Assembly: GCA_022841905.1 (NCBI GenBank)
Contig: JALHQO010000007.1
Location: 62,001 to 126,000 of the forward strand
Source of the DNA: Hyphomonadaceae bacterium
GTDB taxonomy: Bacteria; Pseudomonadota; Alphaproteobacteria; Caulobacterales; Aquidulcibacteraceae
Direction: 5' to 3'
DNA length: 64,000 bases
Part shown: positions 37,721 through 55,346 of the stretch, in pieces
Position numbering within the stretch: position 1 is the stretch's first letter
How the letters are laid out: each line of letters opens with the position of its first letter
Translations under genes and position numbers: made by a program
Notes under the pieces: generated by a model
Told to the model about the DNA's origin: nothing
Databases searched by the model: none
What the model saw: the letters and a program-made list of their open reading frames with translations, nothing else

Positions 37721-39193
37721 TTACGGCATCGCGTCCGGCGTGGGTTCGGCACTCGGCCGCTTCATTAACGACCGCACGCTCTCCAGCTGGCGCTCGATGC
37801 TTTTACGCCCGAAGAAGAGGAGCAGGCCGTAAGCGGTCAGCGTCTCCAGGGTGATGAGGCCAAGCTGATGCCAGTTGCTGGGGTGGTGGAAGATAACGCG
37901 CGTCAGCAGCAAATGCACCGCGACGATCCCCGCGGCGGCGACAATCGGCCAGAATAGCGCTTTCGCGTACTCAAGCTGCGAGCACTGGATGCGCTTGAGC
38001 AAGACGCTGAGTGAACGCGGTAGATAGAGCAAGCTCACGGCGCTGAACGTCGCGGCGATAGCGACAATGCCGTACTGCGCCGAGACGATGGCGGCGACGG
38101 TCCAGAGCAGGGTAAATTCAGCCGTGAGCTGCAGGCGGGTGCCGGTTCGCCCCATCGCTTGCAGCAGCGAGCTGTTGAAGTTGGAGATCGTCTGCACCAT
38201 GCCGGCGATCGCCAGCGCCGAGAAGATAGCGCCGGCGGCGGTCCAACGTTCCGAGAGCAGCGTCGCAAAAACAGGCCCGCTCGCGGCGGCTGCGGCGGCC
38301 ATGGCCGGGAACACGAGCGCGGCTTGGCCGATCGTGGCTGCGAGCACGAGTGCGCGCAATTCGTCCGGCTTGTCGCGCAATTGTGAGAGGCGCGGATAAA
38401 GCGCGGTCTGCACCGGCGTGGCGACGACGCCAGCGGGCAGGTTCATGATGCGGAATGCAACAGTGTAGAGGCCGAGCGGCGCGGTGCCGAGGGCTTTGCC
38501 GATGACGAACGGATCGATCTGCTTGCCGATCACTTGCATGATTGCATAGCCCAACGTGTCGCGGGCAAAGCGCAAATGTTCGCCAAGGGCAGTGAGGCTG
38601 AAGACGTAGCGCGGCTTGTACTTGGCGGCGATGAGGATGATCGGCGCGCGCACGGCGACGTTGACGATGTTCTGCGCCACCAGCGCCCACGCGCCAAAAC
38701 CGGCGAGGCCAAAGCCAATAGCCGCGACCGCACCCGCGATCGCCGCGGCGAAATCGGCGCCAGCCAGTGGCAGCAAGTTTTCCCGCTTGATCAAGGAAGC
38801 GATCGGCAGCTCGAGAAATCCCATCATGAGCGGGATGATCGCGAGCGCCAGCATCACCGGCAGCAGGGCCGGCGTTTCGAAGAAGATCGACGCTGGCCAG
38901 GCGAGGGCCGCAAGCAAGAGGGAAAGACAAGCCGTGGCGCCGACAATGAGCCAATGCGCGCTGGACCAGGCGTCACTATCGAGTTCGCTGGTGCGGATGA
39001 GTGAGCGGCTGAGCCCCGCATCGCTCACCGCCAATGTCAGCGACACCGCCGCCATGGCGAGTGCGACGAGGCCGAATTCGCTCGGCTCCAACAAGCGCGC
39101 CATAAACGGCACTGTGAGAAAGCTCGCGCCGAGCTGAAAGATGCGCGCCGCCGAGAGCGCGCCCGCGCCAAAAGCCAATCGCCTGAGCGCCAC
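37721..39193 (-). CDS. Wzx-type oligosaccharide flippase
   Basis: A 490-residue membrane protein with about 12-14 hydrophobic segments and the N-terminal pattern SAARIFQLGASFLTVPFMARLLEPSEFGLVALAMA of polysaccharide exporters (MOP/PST family). SDAGLSRSLIR and PALLPVMLALAIIPLMMG also fit. It would flip the lipid-linked repeat unit to the periplasm. The GTG start at 39193 lies two bases behind the stop of the polymerase gene, so the two are coupled (flippase and polymerase adjacent, as usual). Confidence 0.9.
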   Translation of the reverse strand: MALRRLAFGAGALSAARIFQLGASFLTVPFMARLLEPSEFGLVALAMAAVSLTLAVSDAGLSRSLIRTSELDSDAWSSAHWLIVGATACLSLLLAALAWPASIFFETPALLPVMLALAIIPLMMGFLELPIASLIKRENLLPLAGADFAAAIAGAVAAIGFGLAGFGAWALVAQNIVNVAVRAPIILIAAKYKPRYVFSLTALGEHLRFARDTLGYAIMQVIGKQIDPFVIGKALGTAPLGLYTVAFRIMNLPAGVVATPVQTALYPRLSQLRDKPDELRALVLAATIGQAALVFPAMAAAAAASGPVFATLLSERWTAAGAIFSALAIAGMVQTISNFNSSLLQAMGRTGTRLQLTAEFTLLWTVAAIVSAQYGIVAIAATFSAVSLLYLPRSLSVLLKRIQCSQLEYAKALFWPIVAAAGIVAVHLLLTRVIFHHPSNWHQLGLITLETLTAYGLLLFFGRKSIERQLESVRSLMKRPSAEPTPDAMP

Positions 39194-39194
39194 C

Positions 39195-40577
39195 TTAAGC
39201 GCCCCGCATGAAGGGTGGTCGCGCCGCCGCACGCGGCTTTTGCGGCGTTTGTGTTTGCGGCGTGCGGCCTTGTAGGGAGAGCAGGTAGAGCGTGTAGCCG
39301 CAAATGATGCCGTAGAGCATGTTGCCCTCGATCATCCACATCGGCATCGTCGACATGTTCAGCGTCAAGAACATGAAGTGCGCGCCGATCAGCACTGGGC
39401 GGTGGTGGTGGCGGACGCGGAACGCCGCGCCCAGCATGGAGAGCCATAGGAACAGCACGCCGACGACGCCGACAATGCCAAACTCGAACAAGTAGTTCAC
39501 CAGCGTGTTGTGGGCGTAGAGCGGGAAGATCTGGCTCCACGATTCCGGACCAAAGCCGATCACGTGTTGTAGCGGTCCGCCCAGCGTCCAGCCGTAAATA
39601 TACATGCTCCAAATGCGCGGACGCCCCGACAGCAACCGCGTTTCATCGACGCTGTACTCATGCGGCGGTTTGATCAGGTTGACGTCGCCAGAGAAGAGAA
39701 CGGCGACATCTTGGAAGCGAGACGCAAAGAGGAAAGCGGTAACGGCGAGCGCGAGGACAACCAAGACAGCCGCTAAACTGACGATAAACGGGCGGTCGCG
39801 CGCTGGGAAGCGGTGGAGCGACGAGAAGCCGAAATAGACCAAGAGCAGCGGCGCGATAGCCACCAACGTCGTGCGATAGTTCGCGAGCACGATGCCGCCG
39901 ACGCAAGCGATGACGAGGCCGAACTTGGTGAGGCGGTTGAGCCGGTCGTTGAAGACGACAATGGTAAGGCATGTCGCCAGGATGACGGAGAACACGGCCT
40001 CGTGGTTAAAGCCGCCAATATAGCTGGCGGCGTTGGCGTCGGTCTCGGTCGCTTTGGCCACGCCGAGCACGAGCGACATGAGTTGCAGCAGCAAGACCGG
40101 GGCGAACGACCAGAGCAGCGCCGTCATGAACGAGCCGCCCTTGGCGCTTTGCAGTGCGTTGTAGACGCTGAGCGTCACGACGATGAGGAAGCCGTATTTC
40201 GTCACGACCGTGATGAGGCCGTTCCAAGGGCCATTATTGGCCAAGGCGCTGACGCAAGCGATGATGATTAGCACGTAGAAGGGGAGCATGAAGCGGAGTG
40301 CGAGGTGGCGCCAGTTGATGGTCAGCAGGCCAACGAGAAAGAGGGCGATCGAGCCGACAGCGTTCGCCGACATGCCCGCAACCAGCGGCCTGTAGGTGAT
40401 CGCGTGCATGGATTGCATGGCCAGCCGCAACCACGATGCGCCGATCATGAACGCGGCGGCGCGGTTACGCATGCGCATCATCGCCAGGACGACAAACACC
40501 AAGCTCAGCCCGAGGACGGGATAGAGCGCCCACGCCGGCATCGACGGTGCAAAGAGGGCAAGTTCGTTGGAATTCAT
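39195..40577 (-). CDS. Wzy/O-antigen-ligase-type membrane polymerase
   Basis: A 460-residue protein with about 11-12 TM segments and one large periplasmic loop (about 305-385). The loop holds LLSGRPRIWSMYIYGWTLGG, VIGFGPESW and YAHNTLVNYLFEFGIVGVVG, the conserved Arg, Glu and His region of the Wzy_C family. It would join repeat units on the periplasmic face. ATG 40577 starts the run of minus-strand genes polymerase-flippase-GT2, divergent from the GT4 at 40817 across 239 nt. Confidence 0.9.
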   Translation of the reverse strand: MNSNELALFAPSMPAWALYPVLGLSLVFVVLAMMRMRNRAAAFMIGASWLRLAMQSMHAITYRPLVAGMSANAVGSIALFLVGLLTINWRHLALRFMLPFYVLIIIACVSALANNGPWNGLITVVTKYGFLIVVTLSVYNALQSAKGGSFMTALLWSFAPVLLLQLMSLVLGVAKATETDANAASYIGGFNHEAVFSVILATCLTIVVFNDRLNRLTKFGLVIACVGGIVLANYRTTLVAIAPLLLVYFGFSSLHRFPARDRPFIVSLAAVLVVLALAVTAFLFASRFQDVAVLFSGDVNLIKPPHEYSVDETRLLSGRPRIWSMYIYGWTLGGPLQHVIGFGPESWSQIFPLYAHNTLVNYLFEFGIVGVVGVLFLWLSMLGAAFRVRHHHRPVLIGAHFMFLTLNMSTMPMWMIEGNMLYGIICGYTLYLLSLQGRTPQTQTPQKPRAAARPPFMRGA

Positions 40578-40816: not shown

Positions 40817-41935
40817 ATGACAGCGCCGCGCCGCGCCATTTTCCTGATCAACTCGCTCGCCGGCGGCGGCGCCGAGCGGGTGATGTGCACGCTGCTGCGT
40901 TATTCCGAACCGATGCGGGCGGAGTTCCAGATCACGCTGGCGCTCTTGGATCAGGAACCAGCGGCCTACGCGCCGCCCGACTGGGTTGAACTGCGGCAGC
41001 TGGACGGCCGGCGCTCGCTGCCGCGCAGCATCGCGGCAGTGGGAAAGCTCTATGCGGATTTGAAGCCGGACGTAACGCTCAGCTTCCTGAGCCGCGCCAA
41101 TATCGCCAATATCTGGAACGCCAAGGGCGGGTGCGTGATCAGCGAGCGCTCGAACACGTCGGCGCATCTGCCTGGGTTGCGCGCTGCGCCGGCGCGCGCG
41201 CTGGTGCGGCTTGCCTATCCGCGTGCTGATAAGGTGATCGCGGTGTCGCAAGGCGTCGCTGACGATTTGGTGCAGAATTTCGGCTTAGCGCGCGAGAAGC
41301 TCGCGACCATCGCCAACCCGATCGACGCCGCCGCCATTGCGCAACGCGCCGCTGAGGCGCCGACGATTGATACCGAGAATGATTATCTCCTCGCGGTTGG
41401 CCGGTTGGTGCGGTCGAAGAATTTTGAACTTCTGATCCGCGCCTATGCGGCGTCGGAGCTTGCGCAGCGTCTCGTGATTTTGGGTGAGGGCCCTGAGCGC
41501 GTGAATCTGGAAGGCTTGATTGCAGAGCTCGGTCTCGCAGACCGCGTCTCGATGCCCGGTTTTGCTGCTAATCCTTATCCCATCATGGCGCGCGCGGCGC
41601 TATTCGTGCTCTCGTCGAATGACGAGGGGTTTCCGAATGCGTTGGTGGAAGCGATGACGCTAGGCGTGCCGGTGGTCGCGACCAATTGCGCTTCGGGGCC
41701 ATCCGAAATTTTGGCGGAGAGCGCGCGCGAGACTGTGAGCGGCCTTGCGCTGGCTCAACACGGCGTGCTGACGCCGACGGATGATGTGGCTTCCATGGCG
41801 GAAGCACTGCGTCTGATGTCCGATCTCGAACGCCGGCGCGACTACGGCGCTCGCGCGGAGGCGCGTGCGCGCACCTACAGCCCTGAAGCCGCGGCCGAGC
41901 GTTACTGGCGCGTCTTGCGCGAGGCGATGGCATGA
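40817..41935 (+). CDS. Glycosyltransferase family 4
   Basis: A 372-residue GT-B enzyme. ATG 40817 is chosen (AAGG about 8 nt upstream). It begins AIFLINSLAGGGAERVMCTLL, typical of N-acetylgalactosamine-alpha-1,4-like transferases, and has LLAVGRLVRSKNFELLIRAY, LVILGEGPERVNLEGLI, VSMPGFAANPYPIMARA and NDEGFPNALVEAMTLGVPVVAT. It would add a sugar to the repeat unit. It overlaps the pyruvyl transferase start by 4 nt (ATGA). Confidence 0.92.
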   Translation: MTAPRRAIFLINSLAGGGAERVMCTLLRYSEPMRAEFQITLALLDQEPAAYAPPDWVELRQLDGRRSLPRSIAAVGKLYADLKPDVTLSFLSRANIANIWNAKGGCVISERSNTSAHLPGLRAAPARALVRLAYPRADKVIAVSQGVADDLVQNFGLAREKLATIANPIDAAAIAQRAAEAPTIDTENDYLLAVGRLVRSKNFELLIRAYAASELAQRLVILGEGPERVNLEGLIAELGLADRVSMPGFAANPYPIMARAALFVLSSNDEGFPNALVEAMTLGVPVVATNCASGPSEILAESARETVSGLALAQHGVLTPTDDVASMAEALRLMSDLERRRDYGARAEARARTYSPEAAAERYWRVLREAMA

Positions 41936-43113
41936 CGAGTCCGCTCCGCATCGCGCTGATTGGCGGCTTTGGCGGCGGCAATTTCGGCAACGACGCGTCG
42001 TTGAAAACGGCGCTCGGCCGCATCGCAGCGAAACTGCCGGACGCGCAAGTTGCCGTCATCGGCGTGAACGCGAAGGCGGTCACGGAACGGTTCGGCGTGC
42101 CTGCCTTTAGGATTACACGGCGCCCATTGGGCGCGATGCGCTTCTTCGATCAATTGTTGTTGCGCCTGCCGAGCAGCCTATTGAACTGGGCTTTAGCGGT
42201 CTGGTTCATTCGCTCGTTCGACGTTCTGTTGTTTCCCGGAACCGGCATCTTCGACGACTATCGCACCGGGCCGATGGGTTTTCCGGCGCAGGTGTTTCGC
42301 TGGTCGGTTGCAGCAAAGCTCTCCGGCGTGCGCGTGATTTTTCAAAGTGTGGGTGCAGGGCCGATCATCAATCCGCTGAGCCGCCTTTTATTGAAGACGG
42401 CGGCGCGGTGCGCGGTTGCACGCTCCTATCGTGACGCTGACTCGAAGGCGTTCATGCAGAGCATAGGCGTGGACGAGCGCAACAGCCCGGTGGCGCCAGA
42501 TATCGTGTTTGCGTTACCGACACCGGCCCGGCGCCAACGCGCAGAGGGCGATCCAATCACAATTGGTGTCGGCGTCATGGCCTATCGTGGTTGGCGCATC
42601 GATGAGCGGCTGGGCGACGATTATCTTGAGAAGCTGGCGCGCTTCATACGTTACGTCGAAGGACGCGGTTGCCGAGTGCGGCTGATCGTTGGCGAGAGAT
42701 CCGACAAACGTGCGGTCGTCCGCGTGAACGCCCTCTTGGCAGACGAGGTCGACCGTGGCGGGGCGCAGAACAACTTTACGGACGTCATGGATGAAGCGGC
42801 GGGCGCCGATGTCGTGCTCGCTTCCCGCTTTCACGTCCTTATCGCGGGGCTGAAGCTTGGCCGGCCGTGCATTTCGCTCAGTTATGGCCCCAAGCACGCG
42901 CAGTTGATGGCTGCGGCGGGCATTGGTGCGTTCGCCCAGGACGCTGACCGGTTCGATTATGATCTGCTCGTTCGCCACTTCGAAACCATCGCCGCTGACT
43001 TGTCGCGCTACGAAAGCATCGTGCGCGAACGCGTTGGGCTGATGCAGACGCGTCTCTCGGAGGTGGAAGGCGAGCTGTTCGCGCAGATTGCGACGACTAA
43101 ACGCCGGGCCTGA
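41932..43113 (+). CDS. Polysaccharide pyruvyl transferase family protein
   Basis: A 393-residue protein of the PS_pyruv_trans family. Visible are IALIGGFGGGNFGNDASLKTA, LLFPGTGIFDD, VRVIFQSVGAGPIINPLSR, the long NBD-like second half with TIGVGVMAYRGWR, and DVVLASRFHVLIAGLKLGRPCISLSYG (conserved His). Family members add a ketal pyruvate from PEP to a sugar, giving the polymer acidity. It overlaps GT4 at its start and runs 17 nt past the stop of the convergent GT2 gene. Confidence 0.88.
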   Translation: MTSPLRIALIGGFGGGNFGNDASLKTALGRIAAKLPDAQVAVIGVNAKAVTERFGVPAFRITRRPLGAMRFFDQLLLRLPSSLLNWALAVWFIRSFDVLLFPGTGIFDDYRTGPMGFPAQVFRWSVAAKLSGVRVIFQSVGAGPIINPLSRLLLKTAARCAVARSYRDADSKAFMQSIGVDERNSPVAPDIVFALPTPARRQRAEGDPITIGVGVMAYRGWRIDERLGDDYLEKLARFIRYVEGRGCRVRLIVGERSDKRAVVRVNALLADEVDRGGAQNNFTDVMDEAAGADVVLASRFHVLIAGLKLGRPCISLSYGPKHAQLMAAAGIGAFAQDADRFDYDLLVRHFETIAADLSRYESIVRERVGLMQTRLSEVEGELFAQIATTKRRA

Positions 43114-44083
43114 TGGCGTCGGCGGGCCAGGTCTTTGGCCGCTGCATGCCGCTGTAGCGCTTGATGTAAATGTGCTCGGGCCAAAACAGCAGGGCGCCAA
43201 TATAGTCTGCAAAGCTTGGCGCGAGCCCGCGCGCGCGCAGGTTTTCGCGATCGCGCCTGGCCAAGTGAGGCTTGGTCACGCTCCAAAACAGCAGACGGCG
43301 ATAGATCACGCGCAGATGGGTTTTGCGGACGCGTTCGCGTTCGCTGTTGGAAAGGGCCAGCGGGCCGTAAATCTCGGCGTAGTAGAGATGCTCCCAGATG
43401 ATCGTCATGATCCGTGCGTCGAGCGTGGAGCGGCGGTTGCCGGGATGATTGGTGGTGTCGCCAATCACCTCGTGCAGATGAATGTAACGTCCGCCCTGGG
43501 CGAGGACACGTAGCATCATGTCAGTGTCGGCGCTGTTGACGGCGGTGTTGTAGTAGGGAACGCCGGGGCGGCGCGTGTCGGTGCGCGTGAGAATGTGCAT
43601 CATCGGGATGCGCGCGTAGTCGGAAAACCAGCGGGCGATGGCGGCGTGCGCCTCGAAGACGGTGGCTTCCGGTGGAAATTGGTGCGGCTGCTTGATGCCG
43701 TTCACGCGCTCGATGCCGCCGACCATGATGACGTTCGGCGTTGCTTCGGCTGCGGCGACCATGTTCTCGATCGCGTCGGGCGGGATGCCGTCGTCGGCGC
43801 AGAGCAGGCGCATGTATTTCGCCTCCGCCGGCACGAGGTCAACGGCGAGGTTGAAGTTCTCGACTTGAGGCACGGTTTCAGCGTTGCGCTTAACGATGAT
43901 GTTGGCGCCGTTGGCGATCGCCTTGGCGATGATGGCGTCGGTGCCGTCTGTGCTGGCGTTGTCGACGATCACGTGCAGGATCGGGCGGTAGGTCTGAGAG
44001 AGCACAGTCTGGATCGCGTTCTCGATGAATTGCGCGCCGTTATAAACGGGTGTGTAAATGGCAACGAGGGGCTTGTCGCTCAT
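43097..44083 (-). CDS. Glycosyltransferase family 2
   Basis: A 328-residue GT-A enzyme: LVAIYTPVYNGAQFIENAIQ, HVIVDNASTDGTDAII, EAKYMRLLCADDG (DD metal site), NSADTDMMLRVL and a C-terminal basic region. It closes the seven-gene minus-strand run that begins with the MBOAT gene at 50198. Its start overlaps the stop of the GT87-like gene by 4 nt (ATGA). The gene overlaps the convergent pyruvyl transferase by 17 nt. Confidence 0.9.
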   Translation of the reverse strand: MSDKPLVAIYTPVYNGAQFIENAIQTVLSQTYRPILHVIVDNASTDGTDAIIAKAIANGANIIVKRNAETVPQVENFNLAVDLVPAEAKYMRLLCADDGIPPDAIENMVAAAEATPNVIMVGGIERVNGIKQPHQFPPEATVFEAHAAIARWFSDYARIPMMHILTRTDTRRPGVPYYNTAVNSADTDMMLRVLAQGGRYIHLHEVIGDTTNHPGNRRSTLDARIMTIIWEHLYYAEIYGPLALSNSERERVRKTHLRVIYRRLLFWSVTKPHLARRDRENLRARGLAPSFADYIGALLFWPEHIYIKRYSGMQRPKTWPADAIRPGV

Positions 44084-45375
44084 GGCAGCGCCCTCCGCGC
44101 TTTAAGCAGCAATGCATAGAGGATGAGACCCGCGACGCAGATGTGCGAGCCCAGCACATAGAAAGCGGGGCCGAATTGGCCTTCGCCCATGCGCACGCCG
44201 TAGAAGACAATAGGCGCCGCGAGCACGTAAGCGATGGCAAGCGCAACGCGCTCACGCTTGGCGCCGGTCTGCAACTCGCGCCATAGCCATGCCGCAGGCA
44301 GCAGCGCCAGCGCGAAATAGTGCGTCCATGCGAGCGTCGAGGCGAGAAGCGCGAGGATCAGCGCGAGCATGATTTCGCCTTCGAAGCGGGTGTTGTCGGC
44401 GCGGAGATTGGTCCAAGGTCGCGTCGACCACACGAATGCAGCGAGCAGCGCGGCGTAGATCGCATAGAGCGCGATTTTGAAACCAGCGCTGAGGGGTTGG
44501 ACGTCGAAATCCCAATACGCGCCGGGGCCACGCTCGGCGCGGGCGAGGGAGGCGGCGATGGATTGGTTGTTGAACGCCGGCAGCGGTTGGCCGGAGTATG
44601 GCGCGATCGCAGTCTGGTGCCAGTAAACGTGCGCATCCCAGCCGAAAATGGCCAGCGAGAGCAGCGCGGCGCTGAGAACGACGATGCCGCCGCCGATGGC
44701 GATGCGGAAACGTCCGCGGAGAAACGCGAACACACCGAGCAGCAGCAATGGCGGCTTGAGCAACGCTGCTGCGGCGAAGAGTGCGCCGGCGCGCAAGTCC
44801 TGGCCGTTGCGGATGGCGGCGATGCCGAGCACGAGCGGCAGGAGCAGCAAGTGCGTCGTGTTGCCTTCGCGGAACGAATAGATCAGCGGGCCGTATGCGG
44901 CGATCAGGAAGAGGCTGAATATCTTCGTGCGGAAGCTGAAGCCGTAGAGCTCGGCCGCTTTCCACCATGCGTACAACACCGCGGCGAGCCCGAGCGCGAA
45001 GAAAACGTAAGCCGCCACGTCCGCGTCGAGCAGGCCGAACGGCGCGAAAAGGTAGGCGATGATCGGCAGATTGACGAAGCCGAACACCTCGCGTCCGTAG
45101 TGCTGCGATAGACCTTCCCAGCCGGAGTGCACGCCGCGCCCCGCGCCCCAATAGGCGCGTGTGAAATCCTGGAACGGGTCCGGCGGCACGCTGAACATGA
45201 AAACGAACGCGGCGATCAGAACGGAAAGGCCGATCGCGGCAGCCCAGATCACTCGCTCGCTCGCGCCGCGCTTGAACAGGAACCAGAGCACAGTGAGGCC
45301 GGCGATGACGCTGGCGTAGTAGACCGGGTTAGCGAGTAGGCCGCTGCCGCGTAGGGTTTGAAGCAGCTCGCTCAT
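44080..45375 (-). CDS. GT87-like (DUF2029) membrane mannosyltransferase
   Basis: A 431-residue protein with about 11 TM helices. The first periplasmic loop holds PPDPFQDFTRAYWGAGRG with the acidic residue expected for GT-C enzymes, and GLLDADVAAYVF, REGNTTHLLLLPLVLG and ALLKPPLLLLG match DUF2029/GT87, the family of polyprenol-phosphate-mannose-dependent transferases. The donor may be made by the DPM1-like protein at 54187; that link is inferred. It lies 4 nt behind the SDR gene. Confidence 0.82.
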   Translation of the reverse strand: MSELLQTLRGSGLLANPVYYASVIAGLTVLWFLFKRGASERVIWAAAIGLSVLIAAFVFMFSVPPDPFQDFTRAYWGAGRGVHSGWEGLSQHYGREVFGFVNLPIIAYLFAPFGLLDADVAAYVFFALGLAAVLYAWWKAAELYGFSFRTKIFSLFLIAAYGPLIYSFREGNTTHLLLLPLVLGIAAIRNGQDLRAGALFAAAALLKPPLLLLGVFAFLRGRFRIAIGGGIVVLSAALLSLAIFGWDAHVYWHQTAIAPYSGQPLPAFNNQSIAASLARAERGPGAYWDFDVQPLSAGFKIALYAIYAALLAAFVWSTRPWTNLRADNTRFEGEIMLALILALLASTLAWTHYFALALLPAAWLWRELQTGAKRERVALAIAYVLAAPIVFYGVRMGEGQFGPAFYVLGSHICVAGLILYALLLKARRALP

Positions 45376-45379
45376 GGCG

Positions 45380-46120
45380 TCAGCACGAAATGCCGCCGTC
45401 CACCAGGATCACTTGTCCGGTGATGGAGGCGGCTTTGTCGCTCAAGAGAAAGCGCACGAGTTCGAACACGTCTTGCTCCGTCGCAAGGCGGCCTAGCGGC
45501 GTGCGGTTGACGATTTGCATCATTTGCGGCGGCGTCAGCGTCGAAGACATTTCGGTCGCGACGTAGCCGGGCGACACGCTGTTCACGGTGATCTGACGGC
45601 GGCCGAGTTCGCGGGCGAGTGCGCGCGTCAAACCATCCATGCCGGCTTTCGATGCGGAGTAGGCGGACATGCCGTTATAGCCGCGGGCGCCGATGATCGA
45701 GCTGATATTGATGATGCGGCCGCCGTCTTCGCGCTTCAGCAGATAGGGCGAGCAGGCACGGGCCATCTGGATGGCGCCAATCAAATTGATCTGGATCAGC
45801 TTTTCGCTCTCGATGTTCGGAAACGAGGCGAGGATGCCGGTGCGCGCGACGCCGGCATTGTTGACGAGACCATAAATGCCATCCTCGCCGGCCCATTCGC
45901 CGGCCGCTTTGACGAAGGCGTCGACCTGGTCGGCCTCTCCCACTTGCGCCGATTGCCAGAAGAAGTCGTCGCCGCCGAGGTCGGAGAGCTTGTCGATCGC
46001 GGCGGACTTGGAGCGGCTGCAGGTGGAGACACGATAACCGTCGGCCAACAGGCCCTCGATCATCGCGGCGCCGAGGCCGCGGCTGCCGCCAGTGACGATG
46101 ACGTGCCGACGTCCGCTCAT
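45380..46120 (-). CDS. Short-chain dehydrogenase/reductase (FabG-like)
   Basis: A 246-residue SDR: VIVTGGSRGLGAAM (NAD(P) site), NNAGVART, Ser in NISSIIGA, the YSASKAGM Tyr-Lys pair, and SPGYVATEM. ILVDGG closes the protein. FabG-type proteins reduce 3-oxoacyl-ACP. Its start overlaps the ligase stop by 4 nt (ATGA) and a dedicated ACP gene lies two genes away, so I infer that it reduces a carrier-bound acyl group before transfer to the polysaccharide. Confidence 0.88.
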   Translation of the reverse strand: MSGRRHVIVTGGSRGLGAAMIEGLLADGYRVSTCSRSKSAAIDKLSDLGGDDFFWQSAQVGEADQVDAFVKAAGEWAGEDGIYGLVNNAGVARTGILASFPNIESEKLIQINLIGAIQMARACSPYLLKREDGGRIINISSIIGARGYNGMSAYSASKAGMDGLTRALARELGRRQITVNSVSPGYVATEMSSTLTPPQMMQIVNRTPLGRLATEQDVFELVRFLLSDKAASITGQVILVDGGISC

Positions 46121-47415
46121 GACGTACCCTTTTTGCCGGACTCGCGTATGCTGATCTGATCGACGATCTTGACCACGCGCGGCACTTGATAAGACGCTAA
46201 CCCTTCGCGGCATGCGGCGAGAACCCGCGCACGCGCTTCGGCGTGATCCTGATCCGGCGCAAACACGATTTCTGCGCCGACGAGCGCGCCCGCGACCGGG
46301 TTCGGCACGCCGAACACCCGCGCTTCCAGCACGCCGTGTTGTTTCAGCAGGAACGTCTCCACCATAAGCGGATAAACCTTAGAACCGCCGACATTGATGG
46401 TGCTGTCCTGGCGCCCGAGGATGCGCACGCGGTCGTCCACGATCTCGCAACGATCCGCGGTGGAGAGCCAGCCGTCATTGAGCAGAGGCTGCGCTTCTTG
46501 ATCCAGATAGCCGCCCATCAGATTGGCGGACTTAATCTGAAGCAGGTCGTCCACGATGCGTAGCGCCACGCCTTGCGGCGGCGTGTCGAGCCAGGCTTTC
46601 GGGAAGCCTTCGCGTCCGTCATGCACCGCGAACACCACGCCGGCCTCGGTGGAGGCGTACATGTGCGTGATGCGCGCGGTGGGGAAGGCGGCTTTGAGGC
46701 GATCCAGTGTCGCCTGATCGGCCGCTTCGCCACCCAAGGTGATTTGCTTCAGCGCCAACTCTGCCGGGCGCGCGACCATCATGAAGGAGCGCCAGAAGGT
46801 CGGCGTGCCGCTGATCTGGGTGACGGCGTTGTCGCGCGCGGCTGCGTAGAAGCCGCCTGGCGTACGCTGCTCGGGCGCCACGATCAGGCCATGCGTGGCG
46901 ACGGCGGTTAGCTGCACTTGCAGGCCAGCGAAGCCGGTGGGCTGATAAGTCAGCAGCCACTTGCTCTCGGTCTGCGAGAACTTAGCGCTCGTACGCGCGC
47001 GGCTCATCAAGGCGTCCAGCGTGTGGGCGGCGATTTTTGGTTTGCCGGTGGTTCCGGAGGTCATCATGTAAATGCGCCGCGAGGGGGCGGGCGCTTCAAC
47101 GGCAATAAATGTATCGGTTTCGCCGATGCGCGCTTGCACGTCATACTGCGCCGCGATCTCGTCGATCGTCGTCGCCGGCAAATTGGTGTGGGCAATGAAG
47201 AGATCGGCGCCCGTCGCATCCGCCGCGCCTATGGCGCGCAGGATATCGATTGGATCGTCGCTCACCACCATCGCCCGCGTCACGCCGCGTGCATTGAAGG
47301 TGGCGGCGAGCTCGTTGACGCGCGCATGCACGTCGCTGCGGCTCAAGCAATTGGCCCCGCGCGCAACTAGGGCTGCGCCGGCATTCACATGGAGGGCCAG
47401 ACCGCGTTCGTTCAT
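46117..47415 (-). CDS. AMP-forming acyl/aminoacyl-carrier ligase
   Basis: A 432-residue, compact member of the ANL adenylating superfamily. Core motifs: MMTSGTTGKPKIAAHT (P-loop A3), GTPTFWRSF, ITLGGEAA, MYASTEAGVVFAV (A5), DGWLSTADRCEIVDDRVRIL (A7/A8) and a C-terminal domain ending IRESGKKGTS with a candidate A10 Lys. The N-terminal subdomain is short compared with acyl-CoA synthetases, as in DltA-like enzymes. It would load the adjacent ACP with an acyl or aminoacyl group. It is coupled on both sides by four-base overlaps. Confidence 0.88.
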   Translation of the reverse strand: MNERGLALHVNAGAALVARGANCLSRSDVHARVNELAATFNARGVTRAMVVSDDPIDILRAIGAADATGADLFIAHTNLPATTIDEIAAQYDVQARIGETDTFIAVEAPAPSRRIYMMTSGTTGKPKIAAHTLDALMSRARTSAKFSQTESKWLLTYQPTGFAGLQVQLTAVATHGLIVAPEQRTPGGFYAAARDNAVTQISGTPTFWRSFMMVARPAELALKQITLGGEAADQATLDRLKAAFPTARITHMYASTEAGVVFAVHDGREGFPKAWLDTPPQGVALRIVDDLLQIKSANLMGGYLDQEAQPLLNDGWLSTADRCEIVDDRVRILGRQDSTINVGGSKVYPLMVETFLLKQHGVLEARVFGVPNPVAGALVGAEIVFAPDQDHAEARARVLAACREGLASYQVPRVVKIVDQISIRESGKKGTS

Positions 47416-47657
47416 TTGACGTAGAGCTTCGCCATTTCACCGGCGGTGCGGAAGTCGATGAAGCCGTCTTGGAACGGGTCGAAGCCAACGCGCTCTTCCA
47501 TCTCGCGCACTAACATGGCGAGATCGAGCGAGTCGATCGGCAGTTCGCCGCCGAGCAATTCGGTGTCAGCGGTCACAGTCGGCGCTGGCAAGCCCTTATC
47601 GCTCATGATTTGTGTGATCGCTTTGCTGATCTCCGCTAGGATTTGGTCTTCAGTCAT
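47412..47657 (-). CDS. Acyl/peptidyl carrier protein
   Basis: An 81-residue acidic helical protein with the 4'-phosphopantetheine attachment Ser in GELPIDSLDLAMLVREME, the usual carrier layout of four helices. It is not the fatty-acid ACP (sequence differs from DSLD-T-V-EL). ATGA overlaps link it to the upstream SGNH gene and the downstream ligase gene. It is therefore a dedicated carrier for the acyl or aminoacyl group used by the MBOAT system. Confidence 0.9.
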   Translation of the reverse strand: MTEDQILAEISKAITQIMSDKGLPAPTVTADTELLGGELPIDSLDLAMLVREMEERVGFDPFQDGFIDFRTAGEMAKLYVK

Positions 47658-48727
47658 TGCGCGTGCGCTCCAGTCTCAGTCGGTTGCGCGGCTGGTTCGC
47701 ATTGAGCGCCTGGGCCGCGAAAAGCGTTAATGTCTGCCGCGAGTCGTTCCGAACGAAGCCTGCGGCCCTCAGCGTTTACGTGAAAGACGGTGTCGAAGAA
47801 AAAGGATTCGTCGTAAACGTAGTCGGCAGGTGCAGCGGGCACGGTGAGCCCGGCTTCGGTCAGCAGTCGGTGCACATTGTCGATGCCGGGCCGGTGCTGA
47901 TCGTAGAAGGTGCGGAGAAGTGGCGTGTAGGACACCATCACCCGCACGCCGCGTGTCTCCATGCTGGCGCTGAAGTCGCGCAACAGGCTGACAATGTCGG
48001 GATCGACCGGCGTGGCCGGATCGATGCCTTGCTCGCGTCCATACGGCCAGTCGACGCCGAGATGGCTGACGAGGTCGCCTTCGGCGTTGAAGCCGCTCAG
48101 CGTTTCGATCTCCATCGTCAGTTCTTCGAGCGTCGCCGGCTCATCTTCATCGCTCGACACTGCGTCGCGCAGACCGAAGGCGACGCCGCGGATGAGGCGC
48201 AGCAGCTTTTCCTGGGCGACGTAGGGCATCGCGCCCAAAACAGCGAGCTGTTGGCGCATGCTCAGGTACGCGAACGCTTGCGGATTGGCTTTGACGATCA
48301 ACAGCAGGTTAGAGGCTGTGCCATCCACTGGCTTAAAGAAGCTGTCATACTCAAGCGCGATGACGACCGTATCGCCGCGTCGCAGTGAAGGGCGCACTTC
48401 TTCGAGCATGTAACGCACGCCAAAATAGCCGTTCATGCCCATGTTCACGACCGGGCAGCCGGTCTCGGCTTGCATCTGCAATGTATCGATGCCGAAGGCG
48501 AGATTGGAGCCGCCGACGAGCACGATCTTAGGGCCGTCGAAAGAATCCAAGCGTTCGTGTTTCAGGAGCGTGGCTTCAGCGTAGTCGTTGCCCTCCGGAA
48601 TGAACGCGACGATGGCGAAAACCACAGCAGCGCAGAGTACGACGACGGCGAGCGCTTTGGCGCCCAGGCGTAGCGCGTTGAGGAGCCGGCGGCTCGGTTC
48701 GGTGGGCGGGGATGCAGGGGCGCTCAT
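47654..48727 (-). CDS. DltD/SGNH-like membrane-anchored partner of the MBOAT protein
   Basis: A 357-residue protein. ATG 48727 lies one base behind the MBOAT stop. One TM helix (about 26-48) leaves most of it in the periplasm. SGNH landmarks: KIVLVGGSNLAFGID (Ser), NMGMNGYFGVRY (Gly/Asn), YDSFF, VMVSYTPLLRTFY and the C-terminal Asp/His pair FFFDTVFHVNAEG. This matches the SGNH partners of MBOAT O-acyltransferases (DltD, PatB, AlgJ-type): they pass the acyl group to the polysaccharide. The exact activity is inferred. Confidence 0.8.
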   Translation of the reverse strand: MSAPASPPTEPSRRLLNALRLGAKALAVVVLCAAVVFAIVAFIPEGNDYAEATLLKHERLDSFDGPKIVLVGGSNLAFGIDTLQMQAETGCPVVNMGMNGYFGVRYMLEEVRPSLRRGDTVVIALEYDSFFKPVDGTASNLLLIVKANPQAFAYLSMRQQLAVLGAMPYVAQEKLLRLIRGVAFGLRDAVSSDEDEPATLEELTMEIETLSGFNAEGDLVSHLGVDWPYGREQGIDPATPVDPDIVSLLRDFSASMETRGVRVMVSYTPLLRTFYDQHRPGIDNVHRLLTEAGLTVPAAPADYVYDESFFFDTVFHVNAEGRRLRSERLAADINAFRGPGAQCEPAAQPTETGAHAQ

Positions 48728-48728
48728 A

Positions 48729-50198
48729 TCAGAACCGGAAATAGATGAATTGCTGGCCCGCGCCGTAGAAGGCGCCGAGCAGGACAACGGCGAGCGCGCA
48801 CGCATTGATCATCGCCCAGCGCACAGGGCCGGATGGGACGACTGCCGGCCGCTTTGCTGTCGCCGCGCGGCCTTGCATCAAATCGGCCGTCATCACCACC
48901 GCGATGCCAAGCGCTGAGAGAACAAGGCCGTCGGCGCCACGCGCGACGAAGGCGCGGACTGCATCGACAGCATCGCCCCAACCGGTGTGCAGGTGCGTGT
49001 ATATGTAAGCCGCATCACCAATGCTTTCGGCGCGGAAGAGCACGTAGGCCAAGCAGACCAGCAGGAATGTCACTCCGATCTTGAGGCCCCGATAGAAGGT
49101 GGGCGCCTTGTCGAGTTTGATCTGGCGCGCGAATTGGTTCCAAGGCTTCTGCAAGAGCAGCGAGACGACGATATAGAGGCCGTGCAGCGCGCCCCACGCG
49201 ACGAACGTCCAGGCCGCGCCATGCCACAGGCCGCTCACCAGAAAGGTGAGAAAGAGGCCGAACAGCGTCATCGTGAAGAATTTGAGCTTCAGGAATTTCT
49301 GGCGCGTCAGTGGCGTGTAGACGTAGTCCGTCAGCCACGTCGTCAGCGATATATGCCAGCGGCGCCAGAAATCTTGGATCGAGACGGCGAAGTAGGGGCG
49401 GTTGAAGTTCGGCAGCAATTTGTAGCCGAGGATCAGCGCGCAGCCGAGGGCGATGTCGGTGTAGCCTGAAAAGTCGCAATAGATCTGGAAGGCATAGAGG
49501 ACCGTGGCGATCGAGAGCGTTATGCCATCGACCGCTTGCGGATTGGCGTAGATGTCATTGACGAATGGCGCGATGCGGTCGGCAACGACGGCCTTCTTGA
49601 ATACGCCCCACAGGATGAGTTGCGCGCCAGCGGCAATGCGTGCGGCATCAAAGGCGTGCTCGACATGCAATTGAGGCAGCAGGTTCTTGCTGCGCTCGAT
49701 CGGGCCGGAGACGAATTTTGGGAAGAAGGTGACGAAGAGCGCAAATGCCCCGACATCGCGCTCGGCCTTTCCGCCGCGCATGACGTCGATCAGATAGCCG
49801 ATCAGCAGGAAGGTGTAGAACGAGACGCCGAGCGGCAGCAGCAGGTTCACTTCCGGCACAGCGTAAGGAAGTCCTAGCGAGCCGGCGATAGCGCGTGCGC
49901 TTTCGTTGAAGAAGTCAGCGTATTTGAAGGTGAAGAGGTTGGCGACGAGCAGAACAATGCCGAACGCCATCACGCGCTGCTTGGCCGGCTTTTCCGTCTC
50001 GCGGTCGATGCCGATGCCCGCGACGTAGGCAACCGCTGCTGCCGCGAGCACCTGGACAAGGTAAACGATGCCGCCCGCGGCGCAGAAATAGGCGCTCGCC
50101 GCCAACAGCCAGTGCTGGCGAAAGCGGCCCGGAATGAGAAAGTAAACCACCGCGACGATCGCGAAGAACGCGGCGAAGTGGGTCGAAATGAACGGCAT
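48729..50198 (-). CDS. MBOAT-family O-acyltransferase (AlgI/DltB type)
   Basis: A 489-residue polytopic protein; ATG 50198 follows GGGGAGAG. The AlgI/DltB landmarks are present: YFLIPGRFRQHWLLAASAYF, LPLGVSFYTFLLIGYLIDV, FVTFFPKFVSGPIERSKNLL, DIALGCALILGYKLLPNFNRPY, WRRWHISLTTWLTDYVYTPL and the catalytic His in VSGLWHGAAWTF. It moves an activated acyl group across the membrane. It is the first gene of a tightly coupled run (SGNH, ACP, ligase, SDR, GT87-like, GT2). Confidence 0.93.
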   Translation of the reverse strand: MPFISTHFAAFFAIVAVVYFLIPGRFRQHWLLAASAYFCAAGGIVYLVQVLAAAAVAYVAGIGIDRETEKPAKQRVMAFGIVLLVANLFTFKYADFFNESARAIAGSLGLPYAVPEVNLLLPLGVSFYTFLLIGYLIDVMRGGKAERDVGAFALFVTFFPKFVSGPIERSKNLLPQLHVEHAFDAARIAAGAQLILWGVFKKAVVADRIAPFVNDIYANPQAVDGITLSIATVLYAFQIYCDFSGYTDIALGCALILGYKLLPNFNRPYFAVSIQDFWRRWHISLTTWLTDYVYTPLTRQKFLKLKFFTMTLFGLFLTFLVSGLWHGAAWTFVAWGALHGLYIVVSLLLQKPWNQFARQIKLDKAPTFYRGLKIGVTFLLVCLAYVLFRAESIGDAAYIYTHLHTGWGDAVDAVRAFVARGADGLVLSALGIAVVMTADLMQGRAATAKRPAVVPSGPVRWAMINACALAVVLLGAFYGAGQQFIYFRF

Positions 50199-51930: not shown

Positions 51931-54075
51931 ATGGCGTGTTACCCGGTAATCATGTGCGGCGGCTTGGGCGTGCGCCTGTGGCCCGCATCGCGCCCGGCGC
52001 GCCCGAAGCAGTTCATTCCGCTGATCGGTGAGCGATCGCTGTTTCAGGAGACGGCGCTGCGTGTCGCCGGCATCGCTGGCGCCCGCGAGTTGGTGATTGT
52101 CGCCGGCGCTGCGCATGCGGATATCATTCGCGCGCAACTCGCCGACATTGGCGTTAACGCAACCATTCTTCTCGAACCCGAAGCGCGCGACTCCGGCGCT
52201 GCGATCGCCGCAGCAAGTGCGTGGATCGTCGCGCGCGATGCGGAGGGCGTCGCGCTCATCGTCGCCTCCGACCATCACGTGCCAGACGCCGCCGCCTTCC
52301 GCACCGCCGCTGCGACCGCGGTGGAAGCCTCGCAAGCCGGCTACATCGTCACTATGGGCGTCACGCCGAGTGGGCCGAACACTGCTTACGGTTATATCGC
52401 GCCGGGCGATGCAGTCGGCGGCGCGCGCAAGGTAGCCGCTTTCGTGGAGAAACCGGACGCTGCGACGGCCGAGACCTACATCGCTAAAGGCTATCTTTGG
52501 AACAGCGGCAATTTCGTCGCCCGCGCCTCGGTCTTGCTCGATGAATTGGATCGCCATGCGCCGGAGATCGCCGCCGCTGCGCGGCGCGCAGTTGCTGAGG
52601 CGAACGAGAATGACGGCGTTGTGCTGCTGACCGGCGCTTTTCGCTCTGCGCCGAAAATCTCGATTGATTATGCGGTGATGGAAAAAACTGAGCACGCTGC
52701 CGTTCTGCCGGTCAGCTTTGCCTGGACTGATCTCGGCGCTTGGGATGCGGTGTGGAGTGCGCGCGAGAAGGATGGGCGGGGCAACGCCGAGCGCGGCGAA
52801 GTTACGTTGCAGGATGCGGAGAATGTTCTGGTCAGCGCGGCGCCGGGGGTGCGCGTTGTGGCGATTGGCGTGAGCGATGTGGCGATCGTCGCCGAAGCTG
52901 GCCAAGTGTTGGTTTGCGACCTCGCATCTAGCCAAAGCGTAAAAACCGTCGTCGATGCACTGAAAGCAAAAGGCGAGGACGTCGCGCCGGCGCCGTTTGA
53001 GGATTTGGCTGGCGCCGCGCGGTGGTTTGATCGCTGGCTTAGGCTCAGTGCGCTGCCGTTCTGGTGCAGCGTCGGGCTCGATCACGCGCGTGGCGGCTTC
53101 CATGAAGCGGTTTCGCTCGATGGCGCGCCGCTCGATTTGCCGCGCCGCATGCGCGTGCAGGCAAGGCAAGCGTATGTGTATGCGCAGGCGGGGCAAATGA
53201 ACTGGCCGGGGCCGTGGCGGCAAGCGGCGCAGCATGGGCTCGATTATTTGGAGGCAGCGTACAAGCGTCCGGACGGGCTTTATCGCACGCTGGTCGCCGC
53301 CGACGGCGCCACGATCGATGAAACCGCGATGCTCTACGATCAGGCGTTCGTGCTGCTCGCGTTGGCGGCGCTGAAGCAAGCTGGCGCGAGCGGCCCTTGG
53401 GGGGCGCACGCGGAAACACTGCGCGGCGCGATCGAGCGTCATCGCCACGCGGATGGCGGCTTCCGTGAATCGCCGCCGCACCCGTTCCAAGCCAACGCGC
53501 ACATGCATTTGTTCGAGGCGGCGCAAGCGTGGAGCGAAGCAGCTGGCGGCCCTGCATGGGGCGCGCTCGCGGATGAGATCGCGCAGCTGGCGCTGACCTG
53601 CTTTGTCGACGCTGAAGGCGGTTTTGTGCGTGAGTTCTTCGATGCGTCCTGGGCGCGCGCTACTGGCGACGAAGGACGCCATCTTGAGCCCGGTCATCAA
53701 TTTGAGTGGGCCTGGCTGTTTGCGCGTGCGGGTCACGAGGCGGCGGCGCGGAAGCTGTTTGCGGCGGGCGTGCGCGGCATCGATCCCCGCCGAAACGCTG
53801 CCGTCGATGCGGTCTGGGACGATTTCTCTACGAAGGCGCCAACGGCGCGGCTTTGGGTTCAGACCGAGTATCTGAAGGCCGCTTTGATCCTGGGCCAGGA
53901 ACAGCACGCGCTGGCCGCCGCCAAGACGTTTTGGCGCTATCTGCAAACGCCCGCGCCAGGGCTTTGGTACGACACGCTCAAGCCTGACAACACATTTGTG
54001 GATGAGCCTGCGAGCGCCAGTTCATTCTATCACATCATTACGGCGATCAGGGCGCTCGGCGCTATTTACAATTAA
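51931..54075 (+). CDS. Fused mannose-1-phosphate guanylyltransferase and AGE-family epimerase
   Basis: A 714-residue fusion. Residues 1-345 are a type II MPG: VIMCGGLGVRLWPASRPARP then PKQFIPL (nucleotide loop), LIVASDHHV, FVEKPDAATA and WNSGNFVARAS. Residues 350-714 are an (alpha/alpha)6 AGE-like barrel: SVGLDHARGGFHEAV, DLPRRMRVQARQAYVYAQAG, DQAFVLLALAAL, EPGHQFEWAWLFARAG and TEYLKAALIL. It lacks the usual cupin PMI domain of ManC/AlgA, so the AGE part may isomerise mannose-6-phosphate/fructose-6-phosphate. It would supply GDP-mannose for the locus. No phosphomannomutase gene lies nearby. Confidence 0.9.
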   Translation: MACYPVIMCGGLGVRLWPASRPARPKQFIPLIGERSLFQETALRVAGIAGARELVIVAGAAHADIIRAQLADIGVNATILLEPEARDSGAAIAAASAWIVARDAEGVALIVASDHHVPDAAAFRTAAATAVEASQAGYIVTMGVTPSGPNTAYGYIAPGDAVGGARKVAAFVEKPDAATAETYIAKGYLWNSGNFVARASVLLDELDRHAPEIAAAARRAVAEANENDGVVLLTGAFRSAPKISIDYAVMEKTEHAAVLPVSFAWTDLGAWDAVWSAREKDGRGNAERGEVTLQDAENVLVSAAPGVRVVAIGVSDVAIVAEAGQVLVCDLASSQSVKTVVDALKAKGEDVAPAPFEDLAGAARWFDRWLRLSALPFWCSVGLDHARGGFHEAVSLDGAPLDLPRRMRVQARQAYVYAQAGQMNWPGPWRQAAQHGLDYLEAAYKRPDGLYRTLVAADGATIDETAMLYDQAFVLLALAALKQAGASGPWGAHAETLRGAIERHRHADGGFRESPPHPFQANAHMHLFEAAQAWSEAAGGPAWGALADEIAQLALTCFVDAEGGFVREFFDASWARATGDEGRHLEPGHQFEWAWLFARAGHEAAARKLFAAGVRGIDPRRNAAVDAVWDDFSTKAPTARLWVQTEYLKAALILGQEQHALAAAKTFWRYLQTPAPGLWYDTLKPDNTFVDEPASASSFYHIITAIRALGAIYN

Positions 54076-54186: not shown

Positions 54187-55338
54187 ATGCTGAACGAGGA
54201 CGTGATGAGCGATGTGCCGATTGCCGCGCCTGCCGCTTTGCGGCCAGACGTTACGCACGGCTACGAGCTCACGCTCGTGATCCCGACGTTCAAGGAAGAG
54301 CCCAACATCCGCCCGCTGGTGGCGAAGCTCGACGCGGCGCTGAAGGGCGTGCGTTGGGAAGTGATCTTCGTTGACGACGATAGCAGCGACGGCACCGCCG
54401 ATACGATCCGCGCTGTGGCGCAGGACGATCCGCGCGTGCGAGTGCTGCAACGTATCGGACGGCGCGGGCTTTCGAGCGCGTGTATCGAGGGCGTGCTGGC
54501 GTCGTCATCTGAATTCGTCGCTGTTATGGACGCGGACCTGCAACATGACGAAGCGATCCTGCCGGCCATGCTCGAGCAAGTGCGCTCTGGCGCGGCCGAC
54601 ATTTCGGTGGGCACCCGTTACGCGGGCGGCGGCTCGGTGGGCGAGTGGGATGAATCCCGCGCCAAAATGAGCCGGCTCGCGACTTGGCTCAGCCACAAGG
54701 TGACGGGCGTCGAACTCTCCGACCCGATGAGCGGCTTTTTCCTCCTGCGCCGGGACGCGTTTAACGCAGTGGTGCGCGATCTCTCCGGGCTCGGCTTCAA
54801 AATCTTGCTCGACATTCTGGCCAGCAACAAAGGCACGATGCGCGTTGGCGAGCAGCCCTACCAGTTCCGCTTCCGCGTCGCTGGCGAGAGCAAGCTCGAC
54901 ACACAGGCGCTTTGGGACTTCTTCCTGCTCTTGGTGGATAAGCGCTTCGGCAAGTATGTGCCGGCGCGGTTCGTCTCGTTCGCCATGATCGGCGGGGCAG
55001 GCGTTGTCGTGCACTTTGCGGTGGTGACGGCGTTGTTCCAGGGCATGGGCCGGAACTTCGCGCTGAGCCAAGCGATCGCCACCACGGTCGCGATGGTGTT
55101 CAACTACACGCTCAACAACGTGCTCACTTATCGCGACCGCCGCCGCAAGGGTTGGGGCTGGCTGGTCGGCCTGTTCACGTTCGTTGCGATCTGCTCGATC
55201 GGCGGCGCGGCGAACGTCGGTGTCGCCAATTATCTCTTCGTGCAGGAAACGAACTGGGTGCTCTCGGCGCTCGCCGGCATCTTGCTGGGCGCCGTTTGGA
55301 ACTACGCAGTCAGCTCCGTTTACACGTGGCGCAAATAG
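54187..55338 (+). CDS. DPM1-like glycosyltransferase 2 fused to a GtrA domain
   Basis: A 383-residue protein; the ATG at 54205 (GAGGA 4 nt upstream) is an equal alternative start. The GT2 domain (about 30-255) shows LVIPTFKEEPNI, FVDDDSSDGT, AVMDADLQHDE (DXD) and SGFFLLRRDAFN, as in polyprenol-phosphate mannosyl/glucosyltransferases. The C-terminal GtrA domain (about 258-380) adds four TM helices (RFVSFAMIGGAGVVVHF, then FNYTLNNVLTYRDR). It would charge undecaprenyl phosphate with a sugar for GT-C enzymes in this locus. The GT39-like gene starts 9 nt later. Confidence 0.92.
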   Translation: MLNEDVMSDVPIAAPAALRPDVTHGYELTLVIPTFKEEPNIRPLVAKLDAALKGVRWEVIFVDDDSSDGTADTIRAVAQDDPRVRVLQRIGRRGLSSACIEGVLASSSEFVAVMDADLQHDEAILPAMLEQVRSGAADISVGTRYAGGGSVGEWDESRAKMSRLATWLSHKVTGVELSDPMSGFFLLRRDAFNAVVRDLSGLGFKILLDILASNKGTMRVGEQPYQFRFRVAGESKLDTQALWDFFLLLVDKRFGKYVPARFVSFAMIGGAGVVVHFAVVTALFQGMGRNFALSQAIATTVAMVFNYTLNNVLTYRDRRRKGWGWLVGLFTFVAICSIGGAANVGVANYLFVQETNWVLSALAGILLGAVWNYAVSSVYTWRK

Positions 55339-55346
55339 GCGCCGCG

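Follow-up and report, generated by a model that had tools for sequence, protein, structure and literature searches.

The 64,000-nucleotide window analyzed here, from the assembly of a Hyphomonadaceae bacterium (GCA_022841905.1, contig JALHQO010000007.1, positions 62,001 to 126,000), encodes a compact operon in which an MBOAT acyltransferase and an SGNH-fold partner are joined to an acyl carrier protein (ACP), an AMP-forming ligase and a short-chain dehydrogenase/reductase (SDR). This operon probably serves to pass hydroxyacyl groups from a carrier protein across the membrane to a surface glycan (carrier-fed hydroxyacylation); its reactions, acyl group and acceptor we infer from the encoded proteins and their relatives. 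The proposal draws on the gene set and its conservation, on co-inheritance, on conserved catalytic residues, on the kinship of the carrier-ligase-SDR cassette, on a changed segment of the MBOAT, and on the SGNH fold of a predicted model. The genes and the two relevant MBOAT elements are as follows.

48729..50198, minus strand: MBOAT acyltransferase, 489 amino acids (Pfam MBOAT, 6e-28)
49281..49316, minus strand: TPLTRQ..K segment of the MBOAT, residues 295-306, replacing the GG[NS] loop of ordinary MBOATs
48732..48749, minus strand: C-terminal hexapeptide FIYFRF of the MBOAT with Tyr486, the PatA/DltX acyl-shuttle motif
47654..48727, minus strand: SGNH-fold protein with an N-terminal helix, 357 amino acids (predicted model; no Pfam match)
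47412..47657, minus strand: acyl carrier protein, 81 amino acids (PP-binding, 7e-5; phosphopantetheine serine in GELPIDSLD)
46117..47415, minus strand: AMP-forming acyl:carrier ligase, 432 amino acids (AMP-binding and AMP-binding_C)
45380..46120, minus strand: SDR reductase, 246 amino acids (Pfam SDR; MupS/TmlS-related; Ser and YxxxK motif present)
44080..45375, minus strand: GT87 membrane glycosyltransferase (Pfam GT87, 1.4e-21)
43097..44083, minus strand: GT2 glycosyltransferase, the seventh gene (Pfam Glycos_transf_2; overlaps the GT87 gene)

According to the open reading frame coordinates, the six genes from the MBOAT to the GT87 transferase lie at these positions with a 1-nucleotide gap, three successive 4-nucleotide overlaps and a 4-nucleotide gap between them, exactly as an initial annotation of the sequence had described. 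Pfam bears out the identities assigned there to the MBOAT, carrier, AMP-forming ligase, SDR and GT87 proteins; for the SGNH-like protein Pfam is silent and the assignment comes from the predicted model. The GT2 gene overlaps the GT87 gene by 4 nucleotides, and the tight run thus extends to seven genes.

In the proposed mechanism, the ligase would activate an acid and load it onto the carrier encoded in the operon. If MupQ/TmlQ are a guide, the substrate may be a dicarboxylic acyl-CoA, for instance malonyl- or succinyl-CoA, activated at its free carboxylate. Once carrier-bound, the group would be reduced by the SDR to a hydroxyacyl, which the MBOAT would take over from the carrier at the cytoplasmic face and transfer to its own Tyr486 in the C-terminal hexapeptide. 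Serine 74 of the SGNH protein would next receive the acyl group, which would end up in ester linkage to a sugar of a glycan outside the inner membrane, at one of its hydroxyls; this acceptor glycan is probably built with the co-encoded GT87 and GT2 transferases. The initial annotation had likewise expected dedicated activation, carrier loading, reduction and membrane transfer, which appears right as far as sequence can tell.

The carrier, ligase and SDR resemble a cassette known from antibiotic biosynthesis. Starter chemistry of the MupQ/MupS/MacpD type delivers an omega-hydroxyacyl-carrier by way of a bis-thioester. In mupirocin, a 3-hydroxypropionate starter is made from malonyl-CoA by MupQ/MupS/MacpD, and the priming unit of thiomarinol is 4-hydroxybutanoyl (accessible part of PMC10098928). 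In PDB searches, the best solved relative of the window carrier is MacpD (6tg5, 4.1e-6; next match 0.015) and that of the SDR is MupS (188 bits, against 153 bits for the best FabG). The window SDR is 40.8% identical to TmlS (6e-42), and the ligase, a distant relative, is 30.5% identical to thiomarinol TmlQ over residues 115-419 (142 bits, 7e-34), while rows annotated as malonyl-CoA synthase score 88 and 94 bits against it among the matches listed (30 of 54 records); ligase kinship to the MupQ/TmlQ type was judged via TmlQ. On the thiomarinol plasmid pTML1 the ligase, SDR and carrier genes are adjacent. Residues Y187 and R207 are common to the window SDR, the pTML1 SDR and two other polyketide-type SDRs, and among 80 cassette SDRs they are present in 95% and 100%, respectively; for 13 other SDRs encoded in the same loci the figures are 0% and 15%. 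The exact motif TSGTTG is found in 12 of 13 MBOAT-type ligases, the exception being locus L039 (L numbers designate the loci of this study), and G427-K428 is invariant in nine aligned rows, the window reading ESGKK.

It is possible, if rather unlikely, that the substrate loaded by the ligase is a 3-oxo acid, for example acetoacetate, with the SDR acting as an ordinary FabG-like ketoreductase, so that a 3-hydroxyacyl group such as 3-hydroxybutyryl enters an unchanged transfer step. The SDR is indeed FabG-like with its motif residues intact, the ligase has a loop unlike that of TmlQ, and 3-hydroxybutanoyl is described on several bacterial glycans (accessible part of PMC8074265); the SDR's higher score with MupS than with any FabG and the sharing of Y187 and R207 with polyketide-type rather than other SDRs argue the other way, and a FabG-only reading of the SDR appears weakened. 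The same source names in its reference list an Idiomarina abyssalis O-polysaccharide with 4-hydroxybutanoyl (PMC8074265).

For the transfer half of the proposed hydroxyacylation system, the window MBOAT and its 11 complete relatives (L037 was omitted for its split MBOAT) were compared with 29 comparator loci from a search of the class for ordinary MBOATs; that search found 77 places, distributed over 61 of the 385 genomes, the window's own genome included. H326 and Y486 are invariant in the 12 MBOAT rows, and the C-terminus reads F[ILV]YFxF in 12/12 of the group and 29/29 of the comparators; the role of this hexapeptide as the acyl-shuttle motif of PatA/DltX is described in the accessible part of PMC12148441. 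The TPxxR motif is present in all 12 group members and in none of the 29 comparators, whereas the GG[NS] loop is present in all 29 comparators and in none of the 12; the loop is also missing from the DltB fragment in the PDB alignment. DltC docks on helix HC of DltB, as far as the available text of PMC11035591 describes it, and the TPLTRQ..K segment of the window aligns to the DltB region of this carrier-docking helix. No carrier, ligase or SGNH gene of the window type was found in 12 stretches around ordinary MBOATs, namely the 11 best places in other genomes plus a further one from the same order (contig ends shorten some of the stretches; one of the 12, L151, is outside the 29 comparators). 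In the SGNH protein, the catalytic S, G, N, D and H are invariant in 12 rows; these residues and, in the predicted model, the SGNH fold expected of MBOAT-SGNH pairs are both present in the window partner.

The distribution of the operon was defined by a scan of one genome per species (84,980 species), which gave 228 relatives, of which the best 80 were kept. The MBOAT and SGNH genes accompany the cassette in 12 of these 80 loci, 10 of them in Alphaproteobacteria (Hyphomonas 2, Asticcacaulis 3, Terricaulis 1, Hyphomonadaceae 1, Hyphomicrobiaceae 1, unclassified 2) and two in Myxococcales; since MBOAT, SGNH, carrier, ligase and SDR co-occur in all 12, their grouping is not due to chance. Gene order is the same as in the window in 10 of the 12, with a GT87 gene inserted in L040 and a rearrangement in L039. 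Conservation of this order, set beforehand as a refuting test, thus extends across genera and to Myxococcota, even though the operon is patchy: within the window's family it occurs in 4 of 60 genomes, its own included, all within one of 14 genera. Protein distances among 12 copies correlate at r 0.91-0.97 for all ten pairs of the five genes, and a permutation test reached correlations as high in 0 of 2000 trials for any gene pair. A single 14-row group contains all 13 of the MBOAT-linked ligases (support of 99 in the Shimodaira-Hasegawa-like approximate likelihood ratio test, SH-aLRT, quick tree). It seems, then, that the five genes move together, although shared descent alone would give the same pattern. 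In a Terricaulis metagenome-assembled genome (MAG; L013 8732-11273 and L037 7178-9719), the MBOAT and SGNH genes are each broken into two frames, whereas the carrier, ligase and SDR frames are intact; either decay of the transfer half or sequencing error would explain this.

Across all 80 kept loci, those with the MBOAT included, 77 have the full trio of carrier, ligase and SDR (L056, L070 and L112 were not scored complete). When the class (385 genomes) was searched with the ligase at an E-value cut-off of 1e-50, 11 genomes matched, the window's own included; in 10/10 of the others a same-kind carrier and SDR lie near the ligase, and an MBOAT-SGNH pair of the window type was found in 0/10 within the stretches fetched. 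Neighbours were counted within 6 kb of the ligase with phmmer at E 1e-4 from a few seed proteins, some loci ending sooner, and absences refer to the seed kinds searched. By these counts, the 68 kept loci without the MBOAT hold NeuB/PseI in 27, ketoacyl-ACP synthase III (KASIII) in 25, GNAT-type proteins (for the seeds used) in 16, hexapeptide-repeat acyltransferases in 15 and AAC(3)-like acyltransferases in two; soluble acyltransferase-like genes are frequent neighbours. Nine of ten partner examples have Pfam matches of these kinds, the GNAT seed of L080 having none; of the five GNAT seeds, three have a Pfam GNAT match, that of L080 lacks one and that of L107 was unscanned. The L107 ligase matches 14 of 118 genomes of its family, its own included. 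Because the cassette adjoins such varied partners (NeuB/PseI, KASIII, GNAT, hexapeptide-repeat, AAC(3) and polyketide synthase-type genes), it looks like a portable donor module.

Several individual loci illustrate these neighbourhoods. In Azospirillum brasilense Sp7 (L158 6530-9861), the carrier, ligase, SDR and a KASIII gene lie between pseI and flagellin, and this KASIII may act as an acyltransferase. On plasmids of Bradyrhizobium japonicum (L157) and Burkholderia stagnalis (L159), the gene after the ligase-SDR-carrier cassette is annotated as a type I polyketide synthase in the former and, at 6.3 kb, simply as SDR family in the latter; here, too, use may be made of hydroxyacyl starters. 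In L045 (9693-12007), a hexapeptide-repeat acyltransferase-like gene lies just upstream of the cassette on the other strand. L069, in a record titled as a Klebsiella pneumoniae MAG, has the cassette beside genes that by eye resemble histidine-pathway and aminotransferase genes, a possible case of misbinning.

The setting of the window copy concerns the acceptor, for which a surface glycan is proposed. The copy sits inside a polysaccharide locus, whose flanking members are as follows.

37721-39232: flippase, Polysacc_synt_3 family
39195-40577: Wzy_C
41932-43113: pyruvyl transferase
51931-54075: NTP_transferase/GlcNAc 2-epimerase fusion
54187-55338: GT2-GtrA
55152-56846: PMT_2 (25.5 bits, cut-off 26.1)
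57535-59724: Wzz/AAA_31
59958-60737: Bac_transf (initiating sugar transferase family)

The fusion at 51931-54075 carries its NTP_transferase domain and its GlcNAc 2-epimerase-type domain in one frame, and a DUF4910/DUF2172/HTH_47 protein is encoded near the polysaccharide genes at 61703-63202. The Wzx/Wzy setting noted initially applies to the window and, judged from its adjacent genes, to L035; the neighbours of other relatives differ, and L038, L043 and L044, for example, hold the operon outside a visible Wzx/Wzy locus. Such loci would suit an acylated target other than exopolysaccharide, namely a lipid carrier, lipid A or a protein, which we consider unlikely given the polysaccharide locus of the window copy, the GT87 gene (at least 200 bits, within 6 kb, on the opposite strand in three cases) near 7 of the 12 MBOAT-type relatives and the glycosyltransferase-like genes near others.

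Another reading would make the MBOAT-SGNH pair an ordinary acetyl-CoA O-acetyltransferase beside an independent hydroxyacyl cassette that serves another acyltransferase. The FIYFRF tail that the MBOAT retains is that of acyl-CoA-type enzymes, and the cassette elsewhere adjoins other acyltransferase-like genes; the overlapping genes, the co-divergence of the five proteins and the absence of the GG[NS] loop in 12/12 argue against independence, as does the finding that NeuB, GNAT, KASIII, AAC3 and LbH partners of the searched kinds occur within 6 kb in 0/12 MBOAT-type loci. This reading is disfavoured and appears decidedly unlikely. A more elaborate version of the carrier-fed system, in which an omega-hydroxyacyl (3-hydroxypropionyl or 4-hydroxybutyryl) from a dicarboxylic acyl-CoA would be put on a sugar outside the membrane via the MBOAT with its internal tyrosine and the free terminal hydroxyl of the acyl group then glycosylated by the GT87 transferase, giving an acyl spacer in the glycan linkage, would be a long shot.

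Several observations weigh against carrier-fed hydroxyacylation of a surface glycan. The ligase loop reads FAGxQ in 67 of 85 rows, DHIGG in three polyketide-type rows and neither in 15, and identity to TmlQ is just 30.5%, over part of the length, so the substrate may differ. In a quick, midpoint-rooted tree with long outgroup branches, the 82 glycan-cassette ligases group together (support 90) and the polyketide-type ligases, TmlQ among them, branch separately outside that group; this branching and the loop difference would count against orthology of the ligase to MupQ/TmlQ. In the alignment, the window MBOAT has nothing opposite DltB residues 304-307, a stretch that covers two of the described HC contacts, and the docking surface therefore cannot equal that of DltB. 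The MBOAT model falls below 50 in the predicted local distance difference test (pLDDT) at residues 264-300 and most of 302-333, where it mattered, which is too low for a fold search or a docking argument. Drift within a single lineage could account for the missing GG[NS] loop, and co-divergence is evidence of common descent rather than of function. The 14th row of the ligase group, L045 (Myxococcales), has the cassette without an MBOAT nearby. In a Foldseek search with the SGNH model, DltD ranks nearest with a weak match that is not separated from other SGNH folds. Finally, the acceptor is uncertain because some MBOAT-type relatives lie outside visible Wzx/Wzy loci.

The relationship to the Dlt system was assessed with family models. 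Against the DltA model TIGR01734, the ligase reaches 26.3 bits (cut-off 559.85) and ranks 13 of 17 genome matches. The carrier has three NCBIfam matches at E ≤0.01, all to generic ACP models and each under its own cut-off, and no DltC model is among the NCBIfam models matched at E 0.01 or better. The MBOAT, the only MBOAT match of its own genome, is related to the DltB equivalog TIGR04091 and falls below its cut-off (181.6 bits, cut-off 375); its best PDB match is DltB 6bug (5.7e-33), and DltB proteins are its sole solved relatives at E 0.001. A diverged Dlt operon that places D-alanine or another amino acid on the polymer while the SDR acts elsewhere is highly improbable and was rejected on the DltA score and the generic-only carrier matches: it would explain the DltB-like MBOAT, the SGNH partner with DltD nearest in Foldseek and the carrier and adenylating ligase in one operon, and it is opposed further by the SDR beside the ligase in 12/12 MBOAT-type loci and by the carrier and SDR being closest to MacpD and MupS among solved chains. 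The operon is thus not Dlt, because the DltA and carrier model scores fall short. Of the four dlt parts recognized by the initial annotation, the ligase and carrier, identified there as DltA and DltC, prove instead to be kin of the mupirocin/thiomarinol-type cassette, while the MBOAT resembles DltB but has a C-terminal tyrosine motif of its own; the model scores would agree with that annotation's expectation of a group other than D-alanine.

We found no description of this gene combination in the literature searched, where subscription papers are poorly covered, in line with the earlier statement that no such system was known. If the proposed mechanism is correct, the operon would represent a third MBOAT-SGNH layout, with its own carrier and a fused tyrosine, beside Dlt, in which a carrier works with a separate DltX, and PatAB, in which a CoA donor is combined with a fused tyrosine. 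An antibiotic starter-type cassette would then serve as a small portable hydroxyacyl supplier plugged into several unrelated glycan acyltransferases, and the GG[NS]-to-TPxxR change would be a candidate sequence mark for carrier-fed MBOATs, usable in annotation.

Among known systems, the mupirocin and thiomarinol cassettes (MupQ-MupS-MacpD and TmlQ-TmlS-TacpD) have the same adjacent ligase, SDR and carrier and provide the best solved SDR and carrier relatives, but they feed a polyketide synthase, whereas the window cassette adjoins a transmembrane acyltransferase pair; the ligase loop and the partial ligase identity and SDR identity to the thiomarinol-plasmid proteins given above also set them apart. 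Aeromonas group II flagellin glycosylation islands, likewise glycan loci, contain ACP, 3-oxoacyl-ACP reductase and AMP-synthetase genes (PMC7874193) and so match the cassette in its three kinds of gene, compared by kind rather than by sequence; their setting is that of pseudaminic acid, and the accessible part of that source makes no mention of an MBOAT-SGNH pair. PatA/PatB and other acyl-CoA pairs share the MBOAT with a fused FIYFxF hexapeptide and the SGNH partner, while the window system would draw on a dedicated carrier, ligase and reductase rather than on an acyl-CoA donor, and it lacks the GG[NS] loop; MBOAT/SGNH pathways other than Dlt operate without a carrier according to the available text of PMC12148441. 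Dlt (DltABCDX) is alike in its dedicated carrier, adenylating ligase, DltB-like MBOAT, SGNH partner and tyrosine shuttle. It differs in that the window ligase and carrier are not DltA and DltC, that the window operon adds an SDR and lies in a Gram-negative glycan locus, and that the tyrosine hexapeptide is fused to the window MBOAT, whereas in Dlt the tyrosine motif is carried by the separate DltX (accessible part of PMC12148441).

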